Below the pieces are notes generated by a model. The model searched no databases and was not told the origin of the DNA. It was given only the letters and a program-made list of their open reading frames with translations. Positions 458 to 33,821 of a stretch of 33,886 bases of DNA are shown in pieces. The DNA lies in assembly GCA_017465865.1 (NCBI GenBank), contig JAFTVF010000018.1, positions 1-33,886 of the forward strand. Reading direction: 5' to 3'. Both the position numbers and the translations under genes were made by a program. Positions within the stretch are counted from its first letter, which is position 1, and every line of letters begins with the position of its first letter. Source of the DNA: Clostridia bacterium. Lineage in GTDB: Bacteria > Bacillota > Clostridia > Christensenellales > Borkfalkiaceae.

Positions 458-2848
458 ATGGTGAAACGATCGAAATTCGTTTACATAATAGGCTCTGTCA
501 TCATAGGCATCATATCGATTATTTTTATATTCGCGGGTTTGGCGCTCAGCGGCGTGATCGACGCGGGCACGACCAAGCTCATTCTCAAAAGCGCGTCTGC
601 GGATAAGATCTACGACGGGCAGGTTTTGACGTGCGAGGACTGGTCGATCGTGGACGGCGCATTGAAAAAAGGACATACCGCGAAAGTCGTTATGCTCGGC
701 GAGCAGACGAACGCGGGCGTGAGCGAGAATAAATTCGATATCACGATCACGGACAAAAACGGCGCGGACGTGAGCAAGGATTATAAAATCGTAACCGAAT
801 TCGGTACGCTTACCGTCAATCCGTTCCCGCTGACCGTACAGAGCGGCAGTGCGGAAAAGGACTACGACGGTACGCCTTTGACTTTCAACGAATACACGGT
901 AGAGTCCTTTCGCGAACTTTTGGAAGGGCACGAGATTCTCGTTAATATCACAGGCTCTGCCGTTTCGCGCGACGCGAAAAATAAGATCGCGGACGTGCGC
1001 GTGATAGCCGACGGCATAGACGTTACGCATAATTACGATATTACGAAAATCGAGGGCGATCTCGTAATCAAAGGCGCGCCCTCGGGTGCGGGCGAGCTTT
1101 CAGACGGTAGCGCGGGAGAACTTTCGGGCACGAGCGCGGGAAATCAGCAGGATGTCCCGTTGTTCTACGTTACGACGGATTCAAACCAAAAAGCGATTTA
1201 TCTTCGCGAAAAGAGCCTTGGGGAGTATCTGTACAACGATTGGGCAAACCCGGAGGTGTATAAAAAAGCTACAAATCCTCTGTATTATTCGGGGCTTGCG
1301 TTGCAACAGAGCGGTGCTACGGCGTATACCTTGACGGTAGATATCGCGGAAGAAAATCCCTACGGGGAAGTGCCCTATCTTTTACCTTATTACGTGCCAG
1401 CTTCCTCGTCCGAGGAGAACAACGACACCAAGCTGTCTTTAAGCGGGTTGACCGATTACACGGTCGAGAAATTTTACGCCTACGATTATTTTTCAACCGA
1501 CACGCCCGTAACGTACCAAGGGGAAACTGCGGATTACGTCGAATTCGTAAAAGGATACTATACCGCATTACCCGAGGACACGGCGGGGAAAATGCGCGAA
1601 ATCGCGGAAACGAACGGTATCGAAAAGACGAGCGCAACGCTGATACAGGACGTTGCGAGCTTCGTGCAAGGCTATCTGCCGTACAGCTTAGAGCTTACCA
1701 AGAACTATGAGGGCGATTACGCGGTGTTCTTTTTCGAGGAAGCGGAAGAGGCTTATTGTCAGCACTACGCGACGGCGGCGACGGCAATGTACCGCGCCTT
1801 GGGCGTTCCCGCAAGATGGACGAGAGGTTATCTCGTAAGGAATGCGGGCGCGGGCGAGAGTACGCTCGTCAGATCGCTGGATTGCCACGCGTGGGTAGAA
1901 GTCTATATGGACGGCTTCGGCTGGGTGCCCGTGGAAGTAACGGGAGGACCGTACGGCAACCAAGAAATCGATGATGAAGAATGTGATTTAATCATTAGAG
2001 CGATGAACCGCTCGCAACTTTATGACGACAAGAAAGACGACAACATTCTTGTAGCAAATCCCGATGATTGGTACATTGTAAAAAATGAACTTAACTTAGG
2101 GGTGTTAGGGGTGGACTATGAGATTGTTGCGACGGTAGTCGGCGAGCAGGTTGGGATAGGCAAGAGCGACGCGACGATCGATATAAATAGCGTGGCTATT
2201 CTCAAAGACGGTCAAGACGTAACTTCCGAATATACGATCAAATGTAAGACGGGTAAGCTGCATATTTACAAATACAAAATCACGGTTTCCACGGATCCTG
2301 CGGAACAGGTATACGACGGAACGCCGCTTAGCACGGCTGAGGACGATTATACAATCGATGACGTGTATCGGCAGTTGATTGCAAATAACGGGCATACGAT
2401 CTCCGTGGTTGTCAACGGCGAGCAAACGAACGTGGGTACGGGTGTAAACGTCGCGGATATTGTCATTACCGACGAAAGCGGAAAGGACGTTACCGATTAT
2501 TATAAGATAACGAAGAATTTCGGCGAGCTGAAAGTAACCTTATTGAAAATGACCATTACGGCAGGCTCGGTGGAAGAGTATTACGACGGCACGGAATGGA
2601 CTTGCAACAAATACACTTGCGAGGGTGTAACGGTTGTAGACGGCGTAATCCAACAAACAGGGCATACGATCGAGGTACTCATTGTAGGCTCGCAAACGAA
2701 CGTCGGACAGAGTGCGAATACGGTGGAAGACGTCATCTTTAAGGACGCAGACGGCAATGACATAACGAATGAGGTAAAGAGCAATTATCTCATCACCAAT
2801 ATTGACGGTACGCTTACGGTATTACCGTCGGAAACGCCGGAAGAATAA
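458..2848 (+). CDS. Membrane-anchored transglutaminase-like protein with MBG/YDG repeats
   Basis: 796 residues. AGGAGG lies 7 bases before the ATG. Residues 7-35 form one hydrophobic segment with positive residues before it, predicting an N-in anchor with the rest outside (or an uncleaved signal). Two MBG/YDG units come first (YDG at Y52 and Y136), then a Gly/Ser-rich linker near 206-230. A transglutaminase-like core follows: catalytic Cys434 in EAYCQHYATA, His477 in DCHAWVEVYMDGFGWVP, and Glu493 where many family members have Asp. Three more MBG units follow, the first divergent (YDD at Y522), then Y619 and Y709. Transglutaminase-like Cys-His-Asp folds act as peptidases or amide-crosslinking enzymes; which applies here cannot be told. 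The next gene encodes a giant protein of the same repeat type, so it is the obvious candidate partner or substrate. No LPXTG sorting motif is visible. Confidence 0.85.
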   Translation: MVKRSKFVYIIGSVIIGIISIIFIFAGLALSGVIDAGTTKLILKSASADKIYDGQVLTCEDWSIVDGALKKGHTAKVVMLGEQTNAGVSENKFDITITDKNGADVSKDYKIVTEFGTLTVNPFPLTVQSGSAEKDYDGTPLTFNEYTVESFRELLEGHEILVNITGSAVSRDAKNKIADVRVIADGIDVTHNYDITKIEGDLVIKGAPSGAGELSDGSAGELSGTSAGNQQDVPLFYVTTDSNQKAIYLREKSLGEYLYNDWANPEVYKKATNPLYYSGLALQQSGATAYTLTVDIAEENPYGEVPYLLPYYVPASSSEENNDTKLSLSGLTDYTVEKFYAYDYFSTDTPVTYQGETADYVEFVKGYYTALPEDTAGKMREIAETNGIEKTSATLIQDVASFVQGYLPYSLELTKNYEGDYAVFFFEEAEEAYCQHYATAATAMYRALGVPARWTRGYLVRNAGAGESTLVRSLDCHAWVEVYMDGFGWVPVEVTGGPYGNQEIDDEECDLIIRAMNRSQLYDDKKDDNILVANPDDWYIVKNELNLGVLGVDYEIVATVVGEQVGIGKSDATIDINSVAILKDGQDVTSEYTIKCKTGKLHIYKYKITVSTDPAEQVYDGTPLSTAEDDYTIDDVYRQLIANNGHTISVVVNGEQTNVGTGVNVADIVITDESGKDVTDYYKITKNFGELKVTLLKMTITAGSVEEYYDGTEWTCNKYTCEGVTVVDGVIQQTGHTIEVLIVGSQTNVGQSANTVEDVIFKDADGNDITNEVKSNYLITNIDGTLTVLPSETPEE

Positions 2849-2854
2849 AAGACT

Positions 2855-5800
2855 ATGATTTACGAACAATACAGGGCAAAAATTAAAAAGTGGGCGAAAG
2901 TATGGGCAACGATCAAGCGGTTTCGTGTGCTCATACTCTCCGTGCTGATCACCGTAACGGCGACGGTTACGGGGCTTTTGGTCGCGCGCGGCACGGTGTA
3001 CGGCACGACGGATATGCCCTCGGTAATCACCTACGGCGACGGTTTTACCTATAAGGCAAAGAGCTTTATGAGTAAGGTTTCCTACGAATACAGCCTCGTA
3101 AGCTCGGACGAATGGACGGACGAGATCCCCAACGTCCCCGGTACGTACCGCGTGCGCGCTGTAACGAAAGCCGCGTTCGGCGGGAAACGCTACGGAAAAG
3201 CACAGCAGTTTACTTTGCAACCCAAACCCGTTTCGCTGTCGGTTGCGCAGTCGGAGCTTGTCTACGGCAACGCGCCCACGCTTATAGGCGACTTGATACA
3301 AGGCGATAGGGCGGTTTGTAGCGAATACGCGTATACGGGCATAGGCACGGATACGGTTACGGTACAGGCGAAGCCCCAGTACGTTCGTATCTACACCCAA
3401 GACGGCAGGGACGTAACGGGCTGTTATAGCGTGCAGACGGTGGAAAAAAGTATCGCGTTTACCGCCCGTCCGATCACGCTTGAAGTAACGGACGCGACCC
3501 ACGTTTACGACGGTACGGAATTTTTCTCAGAGGCGTATACCGTTTCGGACGGCTCGCTCGCCTTTGCCGACGAAATTTCCGCGTTATTCCCCGCGCGCGT
3601 AACCGATTACACGGCGCAACCGATAGAAAATACCGCAACGTTCTCGATTTCGAATGCAGACGGCGTAAACGTTACGCAGTATTACGATATTACTGCGGTT
3701 TCGGGTACGCTGACGGTGGAAAAACGCCCGCTGTTCATTCAAACGGAAACGCACTCTAAACCCTATGACGGCACGCCCCTTTCCGCCGCCGATCTCGCAT
3801 ATACGTACGACGGGCTTGTGGACGGGCAGACGATTGCAATCAAGGACGGCACGGCAAATTGGGTTATCAAAACGGGCAGCGTGCAGAACGCTTTTACGCC
3901 CGTGATCACCGACGGCGCGGGCAACGAAACCACGGGCAATTACGAGTATTCTTTCCCCGAGGACAGTATGCTCACGATTACCCCCCGCGATTTGACGATA
4001 AAATCAAAAGCAGTCAGCAAAACGTACGACGGCACGCCGCTTACCTGCGAGGAATTTGCAACCAACGGTCTTATCGGAATTGTCGAGGGCGATGACGTCA
4101 AAGCAACCTTTACGGGAACAATAACGAACGCGGGCGAGGCGATGAACGATTTTACCGTTGACAAGATTGTAAGCGAAAACGAAATGCTCGGCGACGTTAC
4201 CGATTGTTACATAATCACCCCGCAATACGGCACGCTGACGGTGGAAAAACGTACGATTAAAGTGGTTACGAGTACGCTGGAAAAGGTATACGACGGCACG
4301 GTGCTCCAAGAAAAAGGGGTTGACGGCGATTACGCTAATTTGATACAGGTAGACGAAGCAAACGGCTGTTACGGTCTTGTAACGGGGCATAGGCTGATTG
4401 CCAAAACTTATTATAATTCTATAAAGGACGTGCAGTGGGTCGGTGAAGGAGATAACAAAGAGGTTACTTCGGTAGAAAACAAAATCGATTTCCTTGTCAG
4501 CAATGCAGAAATCGATAAAAATTACGATATTCAATGCACCTACGGCACGCTAAAAATAACCCCGCGCCCGATTACGGTGAAATCGGAGGGGCTTGATGAG
4601 GTATACAACGGTCAGCCGTACACGAATGCAAATTACGATTATCTGAAAGAGGAGGATAACGCAGGGTTGTTGGAAAGCCTTGGGCATAGCATCACGGCGA
4701 CGTTTACAGGCTCGCAAACCAACGCGTACGACGAAAATAACGAAACGCAGGGTTACGGCGCGAGCGATAACCTGTTTACAATTAAAATAGCCTCACCTGA
4801 AAACGACGTAACGAAGAATTACGAAATAACGTACGTATACGGGATATTAAAAGTAACGCCGCGCCTGATAACGATTACGGCGGAAAGCAGAGAGACCGTT
4901 TACAGCGGCGAAACGCAAAAAATAGAGAAAGACCCGCTTGTGAAAATCGACAACTTGGTGTCTTGGCATACGCTCTCTGGTGTAAAAACTATGGGGGGAA
5001 GCGGTATAAACGCGGGCGAATATCCGCACGAAATCAATCATGCGGAAACTGTCGTTTGCATAAAAGACGGAGATAACGAGGTAACGAAAAATTATCAAAT
5101 TTCCTTTGAAGACGGTAAGCTGATTATTAAGCAACGCGCCGTGTATATCGTTACGCAAGACGTGCGCTGGCTCTACGACGGCAACGAACACTACGACGGC
5201 GACGGGATAGAATATACCTATAAAGGCGTTACTTATAAAAACGACGGCGAAGTAAGCTTCAAAACGGGCGTTATCGACGGCGTAGAATATTATGAGCTTG
5301 AGAAATGGCAAGAATTAGAAGAGGACTATGCTTATCGCTCTACGATGACGGACGTTCTTTGGAAGAACGGCGAGGTTTCGTCGCAAGAAAATAAACGCGA
5401 ATTCCGTATCGTAGGGGAAGACGCGGACAACTACACAATCAAATACGAATACGGAACGATGACGATCGATCCCCGCCCGATTACCGTAAAATCGCTTGAC
5501 GCGCATAAAGTCTACGACGGCACGCCGCTTACGAAAACGGAATGGAATGTAGTCATATCGGCAAACAGCCCTTACGATTTCGTAGACGGGCAAAACGGCG
5601 TGGCGATTGGCTCGGCTTGGGGTAGTCAGACGAATGCCAACGCCGAGTTTGGCAAAATTAAGTATGACTTAACAAATAATACCTTTGAATTGACAGTCCA
5701 AATAACGGCGACGGGCGAGGATATCACGAGCAATTACGATATTACCCCCGAATACGGCTCGTTGACCGTACAAAAACGCCCGCTTCTTGTAACCACTACG

Positions 5801-7861
5801 CACGATTGTACTTGGACGTACGACGGCGAAGAACATTGGGATAATACGTCGTACACAAACGATGACCTCACCTATGATAATGATACCTATTATTCGCTCG
5901 TAGACGGGCATAGTCTGTATATCGATACCTTTACGAAAGTACGTTTCTATATAGACAGCGGTACGGATAACGAGCTTACCTTTAAGGTGAGAAAGGGAAA
6001 CGACGATATCAACGCGAATTATACGATAACGGTTAAAGCATGCGGCAAGCTGACGATTAAAAAACGCCCGATCTATATTCAAGGCACGCACACTATCGAG
6101 TGGATATACGACGGTAAAACGCACTACGACGGCGACGGACAATCCGCTTCCTACGGCGACGGACAGTCTGCGCTCTACGGCAACGACGATTTGTCCGACG
6201 AGGGGTATGAATTGGTAGAGGGCGATAGCCTTATAATCGCAACGCAGCCAAACGCACGACCTCATGCAACCTACGTATGGGATAAAGATATAGTCAACGA
6301 GCTTACCTTTACTGTAACGGATAATCAACGATATTACGACGGTAAAAAATATGAGGGTAACTACGCGGATAACTATGACATTAAGTGGGCGGAAAATTAC
6401 TATTACGGCACGCTGACGATAGCTCCTCGTAAGATCTACGTGGAAAAAACGCACGATTGTACTTGGACGTACGACGGCGAAGTACATTACGACGGCGACG
6501 GAAAGGGCAATACTGTTGCGTACGGAAATAACGATCTTGTGATCGATACAGAGTATTATTCCCTCGTAGGAAACGATACTTTGATTATCGCAACACCCGA
6601 AGACGAACGCTCGGTAACCTACGTATGGGATAGTGTCGCAAACGAGCTTACCTTTACCGTGCAAGCAGGTAATTATCGGGGCAGTGAAGATTACACCGAA
6701 AACTACGATATCCGCCAGCCTGATGATTACGGTACGCTGACGATCAAAGCTCGTCCGATTACCATTGTAACGAACGACGGCACTTGGGTATACGACGGAC
6801 TTAAACACTACGACGAAACCACGTATAGCAACGCGGACGTTATAAACGGTACAATGGTGAAAGAGGATTATATTTCTCTGCTAACCTCCGACGAGCAAAA
6901 AGTACGCGTGAAAAGCGTTGCGTATAGCGAAAAAGAAAACGTGCTTACATTTACCGTAATCGGAAATTACGTAGGCGAGCATGACTACGCGGATAATTAC
7001 AAAATTTCCTACGAATACGGAAAATTAAATATCACTCCGCGCCCGATTTGGATTTCGACGGGCTCGGCAAGCAAAATCTATGACGGTACGCCACTTGTTA
7101 AGAACGAAAGCGAGTATCAAATTGAGGGCGACGGCGTAGGGCTGTTGGAAAGCCTCGGACATACGATTGTCATTAACGTTACGGGCACGCGAACGGACGT
7201 AGGGAAGAGCGATAATACCTGCGAAGTAACGATTTCCGACGAAAACGAGTTTAACGTCAACGATAACTACGCCATTGTGGAGGGCTTGGAGCTTGGCACG
7301 TTGGAGGTTACAGGCGGTAAAGTGGTAATCGGGTTGAAAGAGCTTTGGAAATACTACGACGGCACACCGCTTGCCTACACGGATAAATCTTGGTGGATCA
7401 TAGACAGCAACCTGCCCGAAGATTGGGACGTCGATCTGGCTATTGAGGGTTTATCTTTGACGAAAGTGGGCGCGTTGACCCCTGAAATTCTGAGGGCATA
7501 TCTAACCATCACAGACGAAAACGGAAACATAGTAGTTGACGACGGTGAAAATTTCACCGTTGAGTTCAGAGGCGATCCGTTAAGGATAGAAAAAAGAAAG
7601 ATTACGCTCACGGCGAAAACGATTGCGAAGGTGTTCGACGGTGAAGAGCTTACGGGCGGAAATACCGCGGATATTACCTTCGGTACGCTGGCGGCGGGGC
7701 ATAGACTGCAAGTCGTAACTCAAGGAGAGCAACTCTATCCGGGAAGTAGTGAAAACGTGATTATAGAATATAAGATCTTGGACGCAGGCGGTAACGACGT
7801 AACGGACAATTACGAAGTTGACCGTCGGCCGGGAATACTTACGGTATTAGAAGACGAGTAA
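2855..7861 (+). CDS. Giant membrane-anchored MBG/YDG-repeat surface protein
   Basis: 1,668 residues, starting 6 bases after the upstream stop; a GGAAGAA inside the end of that gene can serve as ribosome site, so translation is probably coupled. Residues ~24-47 form a single hydrophobic segment after a basic N-terminus. The rest is a string of about 15 repeats whose key tyrosines (one is Phe) fall at 218, 304, 391, 479, 584 (YNG), 683 (YSG), 774, 887, 989, 1085, 1206, 1313, 1409, 1501 and 1594 (FDG). Spacing is 86-121 residues. One or two degenerate units precede them. Most units start YDGTPL and end with a GTLTV strand followed by RPI. A second subtype (near 774, 989, 1085, 1206, 1313) reads W-x-YDG-x-x-H-(Y/W)-D. 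No catalytic domain, Cys-rich part or C-terminal sorting signal is seen. MBG/YDG domains are known from bacterial adhesins; an extended surface stalk or adhesin is inferred. Confidence 0.85.
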   Translation: MIYEQYRAKIKKWAKVWATIKRFRVLILSVLITVTATVTGLLVARGTVYGTTDMPSVITYGDGFTYKAKSFMSKVSYEYSLVSSDEWTDEIPNVPGTYRVRAVTKAAFGGKRYGKAQQFTLQPKPVSLSVAQSELVYGNAPTLIGDLIQGDRAVCSEYAYTGIGTDTVTVQAKPQYVRIYTQDGRDVTGCYSVQTVEKSIAFTARPITLEVTDATHVYDGTEFFSEAYTVSDGSLAFADEISALFPARVTDYTAQPIENTATFSISNADGVNVTQYYDITAVSGTLTVEKRPLFIQTETHSKPYDGTPLSAADLAYTYDGLVDGQTIAIKDGTANWVIKTGSVQNAFTPVITDGAGNETTGNYEYSFPEDSMLTITPRDLTIKSKAVSKTYDGTPLTCEEFATNGLIGIVEGDDVKATFTGTITNAGEAMNDFTVDKIVSENEMLGDVTDCYIITPQYGTLTVEKRTIKVVTSTLEKVYDGTVLQEKGVDGDYANLIQVDEANGCYGLVTGHRLIAKTYYNSIKDVQWVGEGDNKEVTSVENKIDFLVSNAEIDKNYDIQCTYGTLKITPRPITVKSEGLDEVYNGQPYTNANYDYLKEEDNAGLLESLGHSITATFTGSQTNAYDENNETQGYGASDNLFTIKIASPENDVTKNYEITYVYGILKVTPRLITITAESRETVYSGETQKIEKDPLVKIDNLVSWHTLSGVKTMGGSGINAGEYPHEINHAETVVCIKDGDNEVTKNYQISFEDGKLIIKQRAVYIVTQDVRWLYDGNEHYDGDGIEYTYKGVTYKNDGEVSFKTGVIDGVEYYELEKWQELEEDYAYRSTMTDVLWKNGEVSSQENKREFRIVGEDADNYTIKYEYGTMTIDPRPITVKSLDAHKVYDGTPLTKTEWNVVISANSPYDFVDGQNGVAIGSAWGSQTNANAEFGKIKYDLTNNTFELTVQITATGEDITSNYDITPEYGSLTVQKRPLLVTTTHDCTWTYDGEEHWDNTSYTNDDLTYDNDTYYSLVDGHSLYIDTFTKVRFYIDSGTDNELTFKVRKGNDDINANYTITVKACGKLTIKKRPIYIQGTHTIEWIYDGKTHYDGDGQSASYGDGQSALYGNDDLSDEGYELVEGDSLIIATQPNARPHATYVWDKDIVNELTFTVTDNQRYYDGKKYEGNYADNYDIKWAENYYYGTLTIAPRKIYVEKTHDCTWTYDGEVHYDGDGKGNTVAYGNNDLVIDTEYYSLVGNDTLIIATPEDERSVTYVWDSVANELTFTVQAGNYRGSEDYTENYDIRQPDDYGTLTIKARPITIVTNDGTWVYDGLKHYDETTYSNADVINGTMVKEDYISLLTSDEQKVRVKSVAYSEKENVLTFTVIGNYVGEHDYADNYKISYEYGKLNITPRPIWISTGSASKIYDGTPLVKNESEYQIEGDGVGLLESLGHTIVINVTGTRTDVGKSDNTCEVTISDENEFNVNDNYAIVEGLELGTLEVTGGKVVIGLKELWKYYDGTPLAYTDKSWWIIDSNLPEDWDVDLAIEGLSLTKVGALTPEILRAYLTITDENGNIVVDDGENFTVEFRGDPLRIEKRKITLTAKTIAKVFDGEELTGGNTADITFGTLAAGHRLQVVTQGEQLYPGSSENVIIEYKILDAGGNDVTDNYEVDRRPGILTVLEDE
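5798..5831 (+). repeat. 34-base direct repeat, copy 1, within the MBG array gene
   Basis: A 34-base stretch identical to 6449-6482, coding for the HDCTWTYDGE part of the W-type MBG repeat. Identity over 34 bases at the DNA level, in a gene whose repeats are otherwise diverged, suggests a recent duplication or conversion between units. Confidence 0.9.
6131..6178 (+). repeat. Tandem duplication of a 24-base unit in the MBG array gene
   Basis: Two adjacent 24-base units (6131-6154 and 6155-6178) encode GDGQSASY and GDGQSALY. They match at 19 of 24 bases. This is a local in-frame slippage-type duplication inside one repeat; it accounts for part of the extra length of the unit beginning at Y1085. 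Confidence 0.8.
6449..6482 (+). repeat. 34-base direct repeat, copy 2, within the MBG array gene
   Basis: Identical to 5798-5831, lying 651 bases downstream, an exact multiple of three. Recombination between the copies would delete about two repeat units and keep the reading frame. Confidence 0.9.
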
Positions 7862-11689: not shown

Positions 11690-11766
11690 TGGCGACCCAG
11701 AACGGGCTCGAACCGTCGACCTCCAGCGTGACAGGCTGGCGCTCTAACCAACTGAGCTACTGGGCC
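11690..11766 (-). tRNA. tRNA-Asp (GTC)
   Basis: 77 bases with encoded CCA. Acceptor GGCCCAG pairs with CTGGGTC (one G-U pair); the anticodon loop CTGTCAC gives GUC; the T-loop is GGTTCGAGCC. It is identical base for base to the copy at 33664-33740 on the other strand. Confidence 0.97.
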
Positions 11767-11787
11767 GTTTGGGATTATTTTTGGGTT

Positions 11788-11863
11788 TGGTGGGCCTTCA
11801 CGGATTCGAACCGCGGACCAATCGGTTATGAGCCGACAGCTCTGACCACTGAGCTAAAGGCCC
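11788..11863 (-). tRNA. tRNA-Ile (CAT anticodon, lysidine-type)
   Basis: 76 bases with encoded CCA; acceptor GGGCCTT pairs with AAGGCCC. The anticodon is CAU. The loop context CTCATAA and overall sequence fit the Ile2 tRNA, whose C34 is changed to lysidine by TilS, better than elongator Met, where the loop usually reads TTCATAC. Initiator Met is excluded by the normally paired first base pair. It lies upstream of tRNA-Asp on the same transcript. Confidence 0.85.
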
Positions 11864-12355: not shown

Positions 12356-12820
12356 ATGACCAATTATATGAAACTCGAACTTGCGGCGATCAGCGAAAAC
12401 GAGGGCTTTGCGCGCAGTGCCGTGGCGGCGTTTGCGTTGACCTTGAACCCCTCGTTAACCGAGCTTTCGGATATTAAAACAGCGGTCAGCGAAGCAGTTA
12501 CCAACTGCGTCGTACACGCGTACAAGGGCGGGGAAAACGCCTGCGTTATCATTGAATGTCGCGCGGAAAAAACGGAGGCAGGGGGCATTTTACATATCGC
12601 GATCGCCGACCGTGGCTGTGGGATCGAGGACGTGGATAAGGCGTTGACACCGTTTTTTACCACGCTTTCAGATGAAGAACGCTCGGGCATGGGCTTTACC
12701 ATTATGCAGACTTTCATGCACGAATTTTCCGTGGAAAGCGCAAAGGGCAAGGGTACGACGGTGCGAATGTGTAAAAAGATCGGTATGCCCGAAACGGAAA
12801 AGGAACGGCTGAATGCTTGA
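12356..12820 (+). CDS. spoIIAB: Anti-sigma F factor / serine kinase SpoIIAB
   Basis: 154 residues, ribosome site AGGAGG 8 bases before the ATG. It has the GHKL ATP-binding fold: N-box SEAVTNCVVHAY (E46, N50), G1 box DRGCGI (D85, G87, G89) and G2 box SGMGF (G111, G113). It holds sigma F inactive with ATP and phosphorylates SpoIIAA. It lies between its substrate and its target sigma factor and overlaps sigF by 8 bases, giving translational coupling and likely matched stoichiometry. Confidence 0.95.
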   Translation: MTNYMKLELAAISENEGFARSAVAAFALTLNPSLTELSDIKTAVSEAVTNCVVHAYKGGENACVIIECRAEKTEAGGILHIAIADRGCGIEDVDKALTPFFTTLSDEERSGMGFTIMQTFMHEFSVESAKGKGTTVRMCKKIGMPETEKERLNA

Positions 12821-13538
12821 CGACAAGACGACAATCGAATATATCCGAAACGCCAAAACGGGAGACGAGACAGCGAAAACTGCGCTCTTAGAGCACAACG
12901 TATCCCTCGTCAAGTGTATCGTCAAACGGTATCTGGGCAAGGGCGTGGACTACGACGATCTTTTCCAGATCGCGTGTATGGGGTTTTTGAAAGCCATCGC
13001 GGGCTTTGACGAGCGGTTTGGCGTAAAGTTCTCCACCTACGCCGTGCCGATGATCGCGGGCGAGATCAAACGCTTTATGCGCGACGACGGGTCGGTAAAG
13101 GTATCGCGTACGATGAAACAGACGGCGAAAGAGATCAATCTGTTTATCGAGGAATACACCCGCCTGAACGATCGCCAGCCGTCTGTGTCCGAGATCGCGA
13201 AAAAATTCTCGTTAGACGAGGCGGAAACGGTGTTCGTTATGGGCTCGTCCAAGATGCCTTTGTCCTTATACAGCGGCGCGGAATACAAGGACGGCAAGGA
13301 ACGGGAGCTGATCGAAACGCTGCCTGCGAGCGACGATCAGGACGACTGGCTGGATAAAATGCTGCTGCGCGGTGCGATCGACGAATTGCCCGAACGGGAA
13401 CGCAAAATTATCGTGCTACGGTATTTTCGGGATATGACCCAGAGCGAGGTCGCCGAGCGTATCGGCGTGAGCCAAGTACAGGTTTCGCGTATCGAAAGCC
13501 GTATCATTAAAGAGTTCCGAACCAAATTGAGTGGATAG
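12813..13538 (+). CDS. sigF: Sporulation sigma factor F
   Basis: 241 residues. Region 2 is clear: NVSLVKCIVKRY, then YDDLFQIACMGFLKAIAGFD and STYAVPMIAGEIKRFMRDDG. Region 3 follows near 95-150. Region 4 has MTQSEVAERIGVSQVQVSRIESRI. Position after spoIIAB identifies it as sigma F rather than the paralogue sigma G. The ATG overlaps the end of spoIIAB (ATGCTTGA). The stop codon TAG at 13536-13538 is made of a TA target site plus the first base of an inserted inverted-repeat element. Without the insert the stop would read TAA, so the protein is unchanged. Confidence 0.95.
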   Translation: MLDDKTTIEYIRNAKTGDETAKTALLEHNVSLVKCIVKRYLGKGVDYDDLFQIACMGFLKAIAGFDERFGVKFSTYAVPMIAGEIKRFMRDDGSVKVSRTMKQTAKEINLFIEEYTRLNDRQPSVSEIAKKFSLDEAETVFVMGSSKMPLSLYSGAEYKDGKERELIETLPASDDQDDWLDKMLLRGAIDELPERERKIIVLRYFRDMTQSEVAERIGVSQVQVSRIESRIIKEFRTKLSG

Positions 13539-13809
13539 CCATTTCGGAGCGAATTGAACCTGCCCAAAACAAGTCTTTTTTCCCCTTTAAGGCTTATCGT
13601 CATTACAATACGTACAGTATTGTTGCTTCCTCTGCGCCTTAAATCATAAAAAAATACTTCATTTTGGGTGCGAAGCAATTTTCAGTAGCCGAATTCAAAG
13701 TTATTCTAGGAAAAAGCCGCAGACAAACCATACGGTTTATCAAGGATTTTGACGAAGAAGAACAAAAAATTCGGCACTCAAAATCAGGTTCAACTCATTC
13801 CGAAATGGC
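13538..13809. mobile_element. MITE-like 272-base element with 25-base terminal inverted repeats and TA target duplication
   Basis: The left end 13538-13562 and the right end 13785-13809 are inverted repeats matching at 22 of 25 bases (GCCATTTCGGA... and ...TTGAACCTG parts exact). Both ends are flanked by TA (13536-13537 and 13810-13811), as for Tc1/mariner-IS630-type insertion. The interior is AT-rich against its neighbours and self-complementary in two lobes. Lobe 1: CCCAAAA 13563-13569 with TTTTGGG 13662-13668, TTTAAGGC 13586-13593 with GCCTTAAA 13636-13643, ACAATAC 13605-13611 with GTATTGT 13617-13623. Lobe 2: GCCGAATT 13688-13695 with AATTCGGC 13768-13775, enclosing an AAACC/GGTTT hairpin at 13725-13738. 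It holds no convincing gene. It fills nearly all of the gene-free stretch 13539-13883. Confidence 0.8.
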
Positions 13810-13810
13810 T

Positions 13811-13847
13811 AACCCGCCGTGAAAAATTTCACGGCGGGTTGTTTTTT
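13811..13847 (+). terminator. Terminator of the spoIIA operon, displaced by the inserted element
   Basis: Stem 13811-13822 with 13829-13840 (extendable by two A-T pairs), then G and six T. It now lies 272 bases from the sigF stop; with the element removed it would begin at the stop codon itself. Confidence 0.9.
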
Positions 13848-13849
13848 GT

Positions 13850-33663: not shown

Positions 33664-33740
33664 GGCCCAGTAGCTCAGTTGGTTAGAGCGCCAGCCTGTC
33701 ACGCTGGAGGTCGACGGTTCGAGCCCGTTCTGGGTCGCCA
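33664..33740 (+). tRNA. tRNA-Asp (GTC), second copy
   Basis: 77 bases with encoded CCA, anticodon GUC, identical to the copy at 11690-11766 in opposite orientation. First gene of a plus-strand cluster. Confidence 0.97.
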
Positions 33741-33745
33741 AACAT

Positions 33746-33821
33746 GCCTTGGTAGCTCAGTTGGTAGAGCAGCAGACTGAAAATCTGCCTGTCGGTGGTT
33801 CGATTCCGCCCCAAGGCACCA
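33746..33821 (+). tRNA. tRNA-Phe (GAA)
   Basis: 76 bases with encoded CCA. Acceptor GCCTTGG pairs with CCAAGGC, discriminator A; the anticodon loop CTGAAAA gives GAA. It starts 5 bases after tRNA-Asp. Confidence 0.97.

Follow-up and report, generated by a model that had tools for sequence, protein, structure and literature searches.

A probable non-autonomous mobile element in the sigF stop codon, one of a family with a conserved two-lobed core and changing arms

Several small repeats described from other bacteria come close to the element reported here. The RUP elements of Streptococcus pneumoniae are short and intergenic, use TA as their target, possess terminal inverted repeats and occur in many copies (PMC2229807, PMC3049150), and the Correia or NEMIS elements of Neisseria have 24-bp ends, a terminal TA and hairpin transcripts, the NEMIS transcripts having been proposed as substrates of RNase III (PMC2229807). 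In addition, the CIR elements of Caulobacter and its relatives consist of two adjacent inverted-repeat arms and are conserved between species, the mechanism of their mobility being left open in that account, and ERIC is a small foldback with TA ends whose orientation matters for mRNA stability (both PMC2229807).

The 272-base element at the 3' end of sigF in a Clostridia bacterium resembles RUP, as presented in those sources, in its short length, intergenic location, TA target, terminal inverted repeats and many copies. However, the ends of RUP are said there to resemble a resident IS630, whereas no IS630 was found in the bacterial family studied here, and the present element has ends that vary between genomes and a core that is kept over an order. 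The Correia and NEMIS elements are comparable in end length, TA and hairpin, but no two-lobed core is described for them in the account cited. Compared by description, CIR is without a terminal inverted repeat, unlike the present element, and ERIC differs in being a 127-bp element of enterobacteria with 7 contiguous base pairs at its ends. We consider it very likely that the sequence at sigF is a non-autonomous transposable element (MITE) that was inserted at a TA within the stop codon, belongs to an order-wide family and is moved in trans. It is best read as a TA-flanked bacterial MITE, a variant of the RUP/Correia/CIR kind that differs by its order-wide core and exchangeable ends; the family is not named in the papers listed by our literature searches.

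The insertion at sigF

The window, i.e., the whole stretch of 33,886 nucleotides that was analysed, is contig C12 of a 1.42-Mb assembly that is 73% complete. The features of the insertion site are listed below with their window coordinates, strand and basis.

12813..13538, + strand: sigF (sporulation sigma factor F), its stop now TAG at 13536-13538 (ORF list, NCBIfam)
13536..13537, no strand: TA left of the element (sequence, flank test)
13538..13809, + strand (the core orientation used for all copies): the 272-base element (ends, TA, copies)
13538..13562, + strand: left terminal inverted repeat, type A (repeat search, end pattern)
13556..13791, + strand: conserved core (covariance model R1 positions 1-238, this copy being among the 38 that built R1)
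13562..13669, + strand: lobe 1 hairpin (helices 1-3 of the covariation test; RNA fold)
13678..13784, + strand: lobe 2 hairpin (helices 4-6 of the covariation test; RNA fold)
13785..13809, - strand: right terminal inverted repeat, type A (repeat search, end pattern)
13810..13811, no strand: TA right of the element, the second copy of the target dinucleotide (sequence, empty sites)
13811..13848, + strand: the intrinsic terminator, still whole but now separated from sigF by the element and a TA (repeat search)

The left end, GCCATTTCGGAGCGAATTGAACCTG, matches the reverse complement of the other end at 22 of 25 positions, a level reached by none of the 33,535 other 272-base stretches of the window, and inverted 25-mer pairs of equal quality within 600 bases of each other occur only at positions inside the element. 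The arms extend to 30 nt at 87% identity (13533-13562 and 13785-13814; repeat search), and none of the listed open reading frames of at least 80 aa lies wholly within the 272 bases. When folded as RNA, the element forms two lobes at -90 kcal/mol; 200 shuffled versions averaged -50.3 (sd 4.7), which gives a z of -8.4. These scans bear out what a preliminary description of this DNA had proposed, namely 25-base inverted ends between two TA dinucleotides at 13538-13809, two stem-loop lobes, and the absence of a further copy inside the window, where none was found.

The sigF gene ends in ...AGT GGA TAG, and the element starts with the last base of this stop. If the element and one TA are taken out, the flanks read GGA-TAA-CCCGCCGTG, which runs into the 14-bp hairpin of the terminator (perfect 14-nt arms at 13811-13824 and 13827-13840, then a T-rich run, starting 2 bases past the element). 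The element brings in a G after the TA, and thus the stop codon is now TAG and the protein is unchanged. The reconstruction offered earlier, in which GGA-TAA is rebuilt before the terminator, TAA has become TAG with sigma F intact and the terminator hairpin has been displaced, therefore holds in each of these respects. The gene identities were taken from NCBIfam: SigF matched PRK05572 (3e-84) and TIGR02885 (3e-79), both below the curated cut-off, and SigBFG above cut-off; SpoIIAB was above its cut-off; and SpoIIAA was below that of its equivalog model and above that of the broader ant_ant_sig.

Relatives with an empty site, whose search had been suggested at the outset, were found. A search with the sigF protein matched all 57 congeneric genomes, and of the 30 loci fetched 28 were readable (our own and 27 others), two not being parsed. 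The site was empty in 27 of 27 other readable loci over the 82 bases after the stop; among the loci read, the insertion is thus specific to our own genome. These empty sites indicate a target-site duplication of TA at sigF, although an element with terminal TA of its own that inserted without duplicating its target would fit the TA at both ends as well. In the event we envisage, a MITE would have inserted at the TA of the stop codon and brought its G, leaving the same protein and a terminator that still follows. Such an insertion is most likely neutral, as the protein is unchanged and the terminator intact, the 3' untranslated part gaining a 272-base fold. This fold may nevertheless affect how stable the spoIIA mRNA is or where it terminates, as the preliminary description suggested.

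Two other features of the window were observed. Two similar pairs of tRNA genes face in opposite directions at a distance of 22 kb, at 11693-11863 (-) and 33664-33818 (+), with model scores of 68.2/70 and 68.2/71.3; these pairs are a possible pivot for inversion. Moreover, positions 458-7861 encode two large proteins of 796 and 1668 aa with many similar repeats, the 796-aa protein being transglutaminase-like by eye.

Copies across the order, their core and their arms

Our own assembly contains three copies in all and six type-A ends by end pattern. The two copies outside the window are as follows.

C10:136656-136927: second copy, 97% identity, full length
C17:10837-11005: third copy, lacking query positions 142-241 and with them almost the whole of lobe 2

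Inspection by eye places the C10 copy where a small reading frame ends, ahead of a hairpin that resembles a terminator, and shows the C17 copy flanked by a promoter-like sequence and a ribosome-binding site. In the genus, blastn matches were obtained in 18 of 57 genomes, our own included. The preliminary description had staked its reading on relatives with an empty site and on the existence of other copies with these ends. The former are the 27 loci above, and the latter are present in our own genome and in two others, G031 and G053.

Beyond the genus, a covariance model of the core (R1) was built from 38 genus copies, including our own, and matches were taken at E <=0.001. In the family it matched 91 of 301 genomes, which belong to 13 of the 18 genera. 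In the order it matched 56 of 396 genomes, spread over 23 of the 142 genera and 11 further family codes (weakest E 8e-4), our own genome being counted in both sets. As seven candidates per genome were scored in the family and five in the order, the resulting copy numbers are lower bounds; in G609 alone, 82 end matches were counted. The genus alignment (A1) was reduced from 46 distinct rows to 43 and then 38 by omitting damaged rows; in the family 78 of 116 matches were used, the rest being hits to these palindromes on their opposite strand, along with a few second copies that were partial, and in the order 31 of 80. Five divergent rows were removed ahead of the conservation profile. Titled records contained 15 stretches that fit a pattern of 26 fixed bases. 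All of these records are MAGs named Clostridia or Clostridiales, and in 13 of the 15 the title refers to a gut sample from deer, sheep or goat; phage and plasmid records gave no matches, and viral contigs gave none to one exact core pattern.

The copies share a conserved two-lobed core of approximately 235 bases, whereas the outer arms of approximately 20 bases differ between lineages and sometimes within one genome. The usual order in the copies inspected is arm, GAACC-like motif, lobe 1, hinge (consensus GGTGCGAAGCAAT), lobe 2, GGTTC-like motif and arm. TA at both ends with complementary arms (>=11/16) was found in 111 of 147 copies (110 with full flanks, and L086 at a contig end), and outside the TA the flanks merely lean to A/T. 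The arms of different lineages are seemingly unrelated, as in GCCATTACGG..., TACTATAAAGG..., ACCAAAGCAATATAATCC, TACTGTAAGGG..., ACCAAGTCAAAG..., TACCAGACGGG..., AAGCAGACGAG... and GCCTGACGAG..., and arm types are mixed in G031 (A and B) and in G045 (partial A, B and C). The arms of the copies at L092, L107, L108, L109 and L125 (G228, G297), with ..GGTTCGATTCCCTTCACCTTA, may resemble a tRNA 3' end.

The distribution of arm types does not follow the history of the cores. On the genus core tree, the five labelled arm types need at least six changes (2 of 54 rows unlabelled). Eleven TATACTATA-type copies fall on two core clades, and a tree that keeps the eleven as one group was rejected (p-AU 0.0006, with arm types labelled after the tree was seen, against the test's own warning). 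The two groups of TATACTATA arms agree at 17 of 19 bases, compared to 5 of 19 for an unrelated type, which indicates that ends and cores were reassorted or replaced.

Several derived forms were also found. Lobe 1 alone matched the model in G398 and G414; G522 contains a lobe-1 unit with other arms and a tandem array in which 150 bases recur 4.5 times (L246, G522 C3, 3836-4514), and G577 a lobe-2 unit of 158 bases repeated 2.6 times in tandem (L247, G577 C2, 3242-3659). In G236 and G264, five longer copies (377-513 bases) have additional nested hairpins, and two copies of 61 bases in G031 have neither lobe and may be deletions in place. At L220 (G233 C32 18400-18800), one copy apparently lies inside another, different copy of the family, with core-like motifs on both flanks (by eye).

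Thus, the element possesses terminal inverted repeats and a TA duplication with an empty site, is found at several unrelated sites and has no transposase reading frame, as is typical of MITEs; an autonomous partner with the same ends, which is also part of that definition, was not seen among the unpaired ends examined in eleven genomes. Two further results count against the MITE reading: 36 of the 147 copies are without a clean TA..TA and matched arms (2 of 38 in the genus, 18 of 78 in the family and 16 of 31 in the order), and the core is more conserved than a passenger MITE would be expected to need. We nevertheless infer transposition and mobilisation in trans. Each copy would consist of two conserved hairpin lobes within a closing pair of arms, its core motifs would be kept while the arms change, and an enzyme acting in trans would insert it at TA and would have to accept very different end sequences.

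Covariation and the level of selection

Both-side changes in the consensus structure amounted to 242 cells, compared to 67 in shuffles, and were spread over 34 of 56 pairs, with a covariation score of 0.326 versus 0.04-0.07 on sliding; the structure tested was derived from the same alignment. Further pair types were not clearly raised (71 versus 65.8 in shuffles, 33/500), and one-sided G.U changes accounted for 57 cells against the 242 double changes. This conserved fold with strong covariation is one point in favour of the alternative that the core is a structured RNA (a UTR regulator or sRNA) that is only incidentally mobile and is selected as plus-strand RNA. In that case, G.U should exceed A.C in imperfect helix pairs. 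Such a preference is indeed present in the inner lobe-2 helices of the genus alignment (10 G.U versus 0 A.C), but there is no excess overall: among 116 copies, G.U/A.C mismatches inside Watson-Crick helices were 79/114 in the arms, 16/50 in lobe 1 and 25/16 in lobe 2, i.e., 120 versus 180 on the plus strand, counts from copies that share ancestry and are hence not independent. As a yardstick, the 37 tRNAs encoded in the loci that were fetched showed 68 G.U and 0 A.C among 776 pairs, an outcome that the tRNA finder itself favours. Rfam likewise had no match in the core, neither in the window at gathering cut-offs nor in nine loci at E up to 1, where all 13 matches were outside the cores.

The genomic setting bears on the same alternative. 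Genes, called with a home-made codon caller, were overlapped by more than 40 bp in 3 of 116 copies, and another 4 of the 116 were in loci without a called gene. Gene edges within 150 bp were co-directional with the core in 82 cases and not in 45 (a copy may count twice), and this sense lean would suit an RNA; a like lean, with 60.8-63.3% on the leading strand, is reported for the BOX, RUP and SPRITE repeats of pneumococcus in the source cited (PMC3049150). Gene starts within 150 bp were also more numerous on the 3' side of the core than on its 5' side (44 versus 27), but this preference was not significant at the five distances tried (p 0.057-0.13; 0.057 at 150 bp). Taken together, we consider it very unlikely that the core is primarily a structured RNA.

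TATAC-type left arms were seen 16-18 bases past TTGACA-like boxes at L064, L059, L063, L042, L134, L091 and L104. A -35 box within one mismatch was present 16-18 bp upstream of 7 of 32 left and 3 of 36 right TATAC-type ends, a weak hint that such arms might serve as the -10 box in promoters of the host. At L033 (G053 C108, 2187-2240), an element remnant of approximately 50 bases gives the last residues and the stop of a mutY-like gene (by eye).

The fold looks to be kept at the DNA level. In the MITE reading that we prefer, arms and stems would stay complementary through changes in DNA, by selection on the folded DNA or by arm-to-arm template switching, which, as outlined in the source cited, predicts double changes without wobble intermediates (PMC8794818). 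An RNA role for the fold beside this maintenance is possible.

The search for a mobiliser and the meaning of the family

Duplication of TA points to IS630/Tc1, and a transposase of this type had been suggested at the outset. It was not found: PF13358 was above cut-off in none of 15 carriers and in none of the 301 family genomes (173 of them >=90% complete and <=5% contaminated), the latter giving a single weak match (E 4e-4); the same search was positive in 3 of 14 control genomes. The element could still be an IS630-derived MITE like RUP with its IS630 missing from the assemblies; the TA target of the 111 copies and the arm length fit this, and repeated insertion sequences are often lost from metagenome assemblies. 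Such losses make the absence of a mobiliser weak evidence in any one genome, and stronger evidence across 301. As no coding element was found between matching ends among those examined either, this derivation appears quite improbable.

Unpaired ends were accompanied by no transposase in G236, G264, G233, G031, G463, G593, G577, G569, G381, G609 or G641; seven of these eleven genomes are g80, the ends were fetched in part (in G609 two of many), and repeats assemble poorly in MAGs. The ends were unpaired by a contig break inside the element, as solo ends, or as 61-base derivatives. Among ten adjacent reading frames compared with Pfam, seven matched cellular families, three had no match and none was a transposase; most other frames were judged by eye. 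One pair of ends 2 kb apart (G053 C108) was rejected as an autonomous element, being two truncated copies around mutY (by eye) and another cellular gene. A recurrent protein family was observed in loci with element ends or copies in four genomes (L292 553-1227, L289 1844-2536, L291 303-851 and L143 3316-3987), matching weakly the end of sigma factors that binds DNA but no transposase and no Pfam entry; it is a lead only.

Two other transposases were considered as sources. IS30 was above cut-off in 8 of 30 carriers, our own genome included, and none of the four IS30 loci checked has the ends of the element next to it (7-10 mismatches of 20-24 at best), so that an IS30-derived origin does not fit; the IS30 of G236 may be bounded by different ends. 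A REP/RAYT origin does not fit either, since the Y1 transposase was above cut-off in just 21 of 47 carriers, our own genome included, and in G000 and G236 the Y1 loci had no element ends next to them (9-10 mismatches).

The result for Y1 also bears on a different mode of movement, in which a folded strand or cruciform would be recognised and the arms would be free to change as long as they match each other. A conserved core with changing yet complementary arms would be expected from this, and single-lobe forms exist in four genomes; however, Y1, the hairpin reader tested, was above cut-off in none of G609, G463 and G593, a TA at each end is the usual mark of double-strand cut-and-paste movement, and the 61-base derivatives, if not deletions in place, carry no lobe to be recognised. 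We regard this mode as possible but unlikely. A related proposal, that the folded core is an identity tag read by a TA-inserting enzyme, with ends replaceable wholesale if both arms change together, is in our view unlikely as well.

For the host, the insertion in sigF is itself a neat and probably neutral event. The family as a whole inverts the usual rule for MITEs, which have constant ends and a loose middle, and it has spread over an order of gut bacteria, with tens of copies in some genomes, without a visible mobiliser. Its inverted repeats, a large collection provided by nature, could also be used to test template switching against RNA selection as the maker of apparent covariation.
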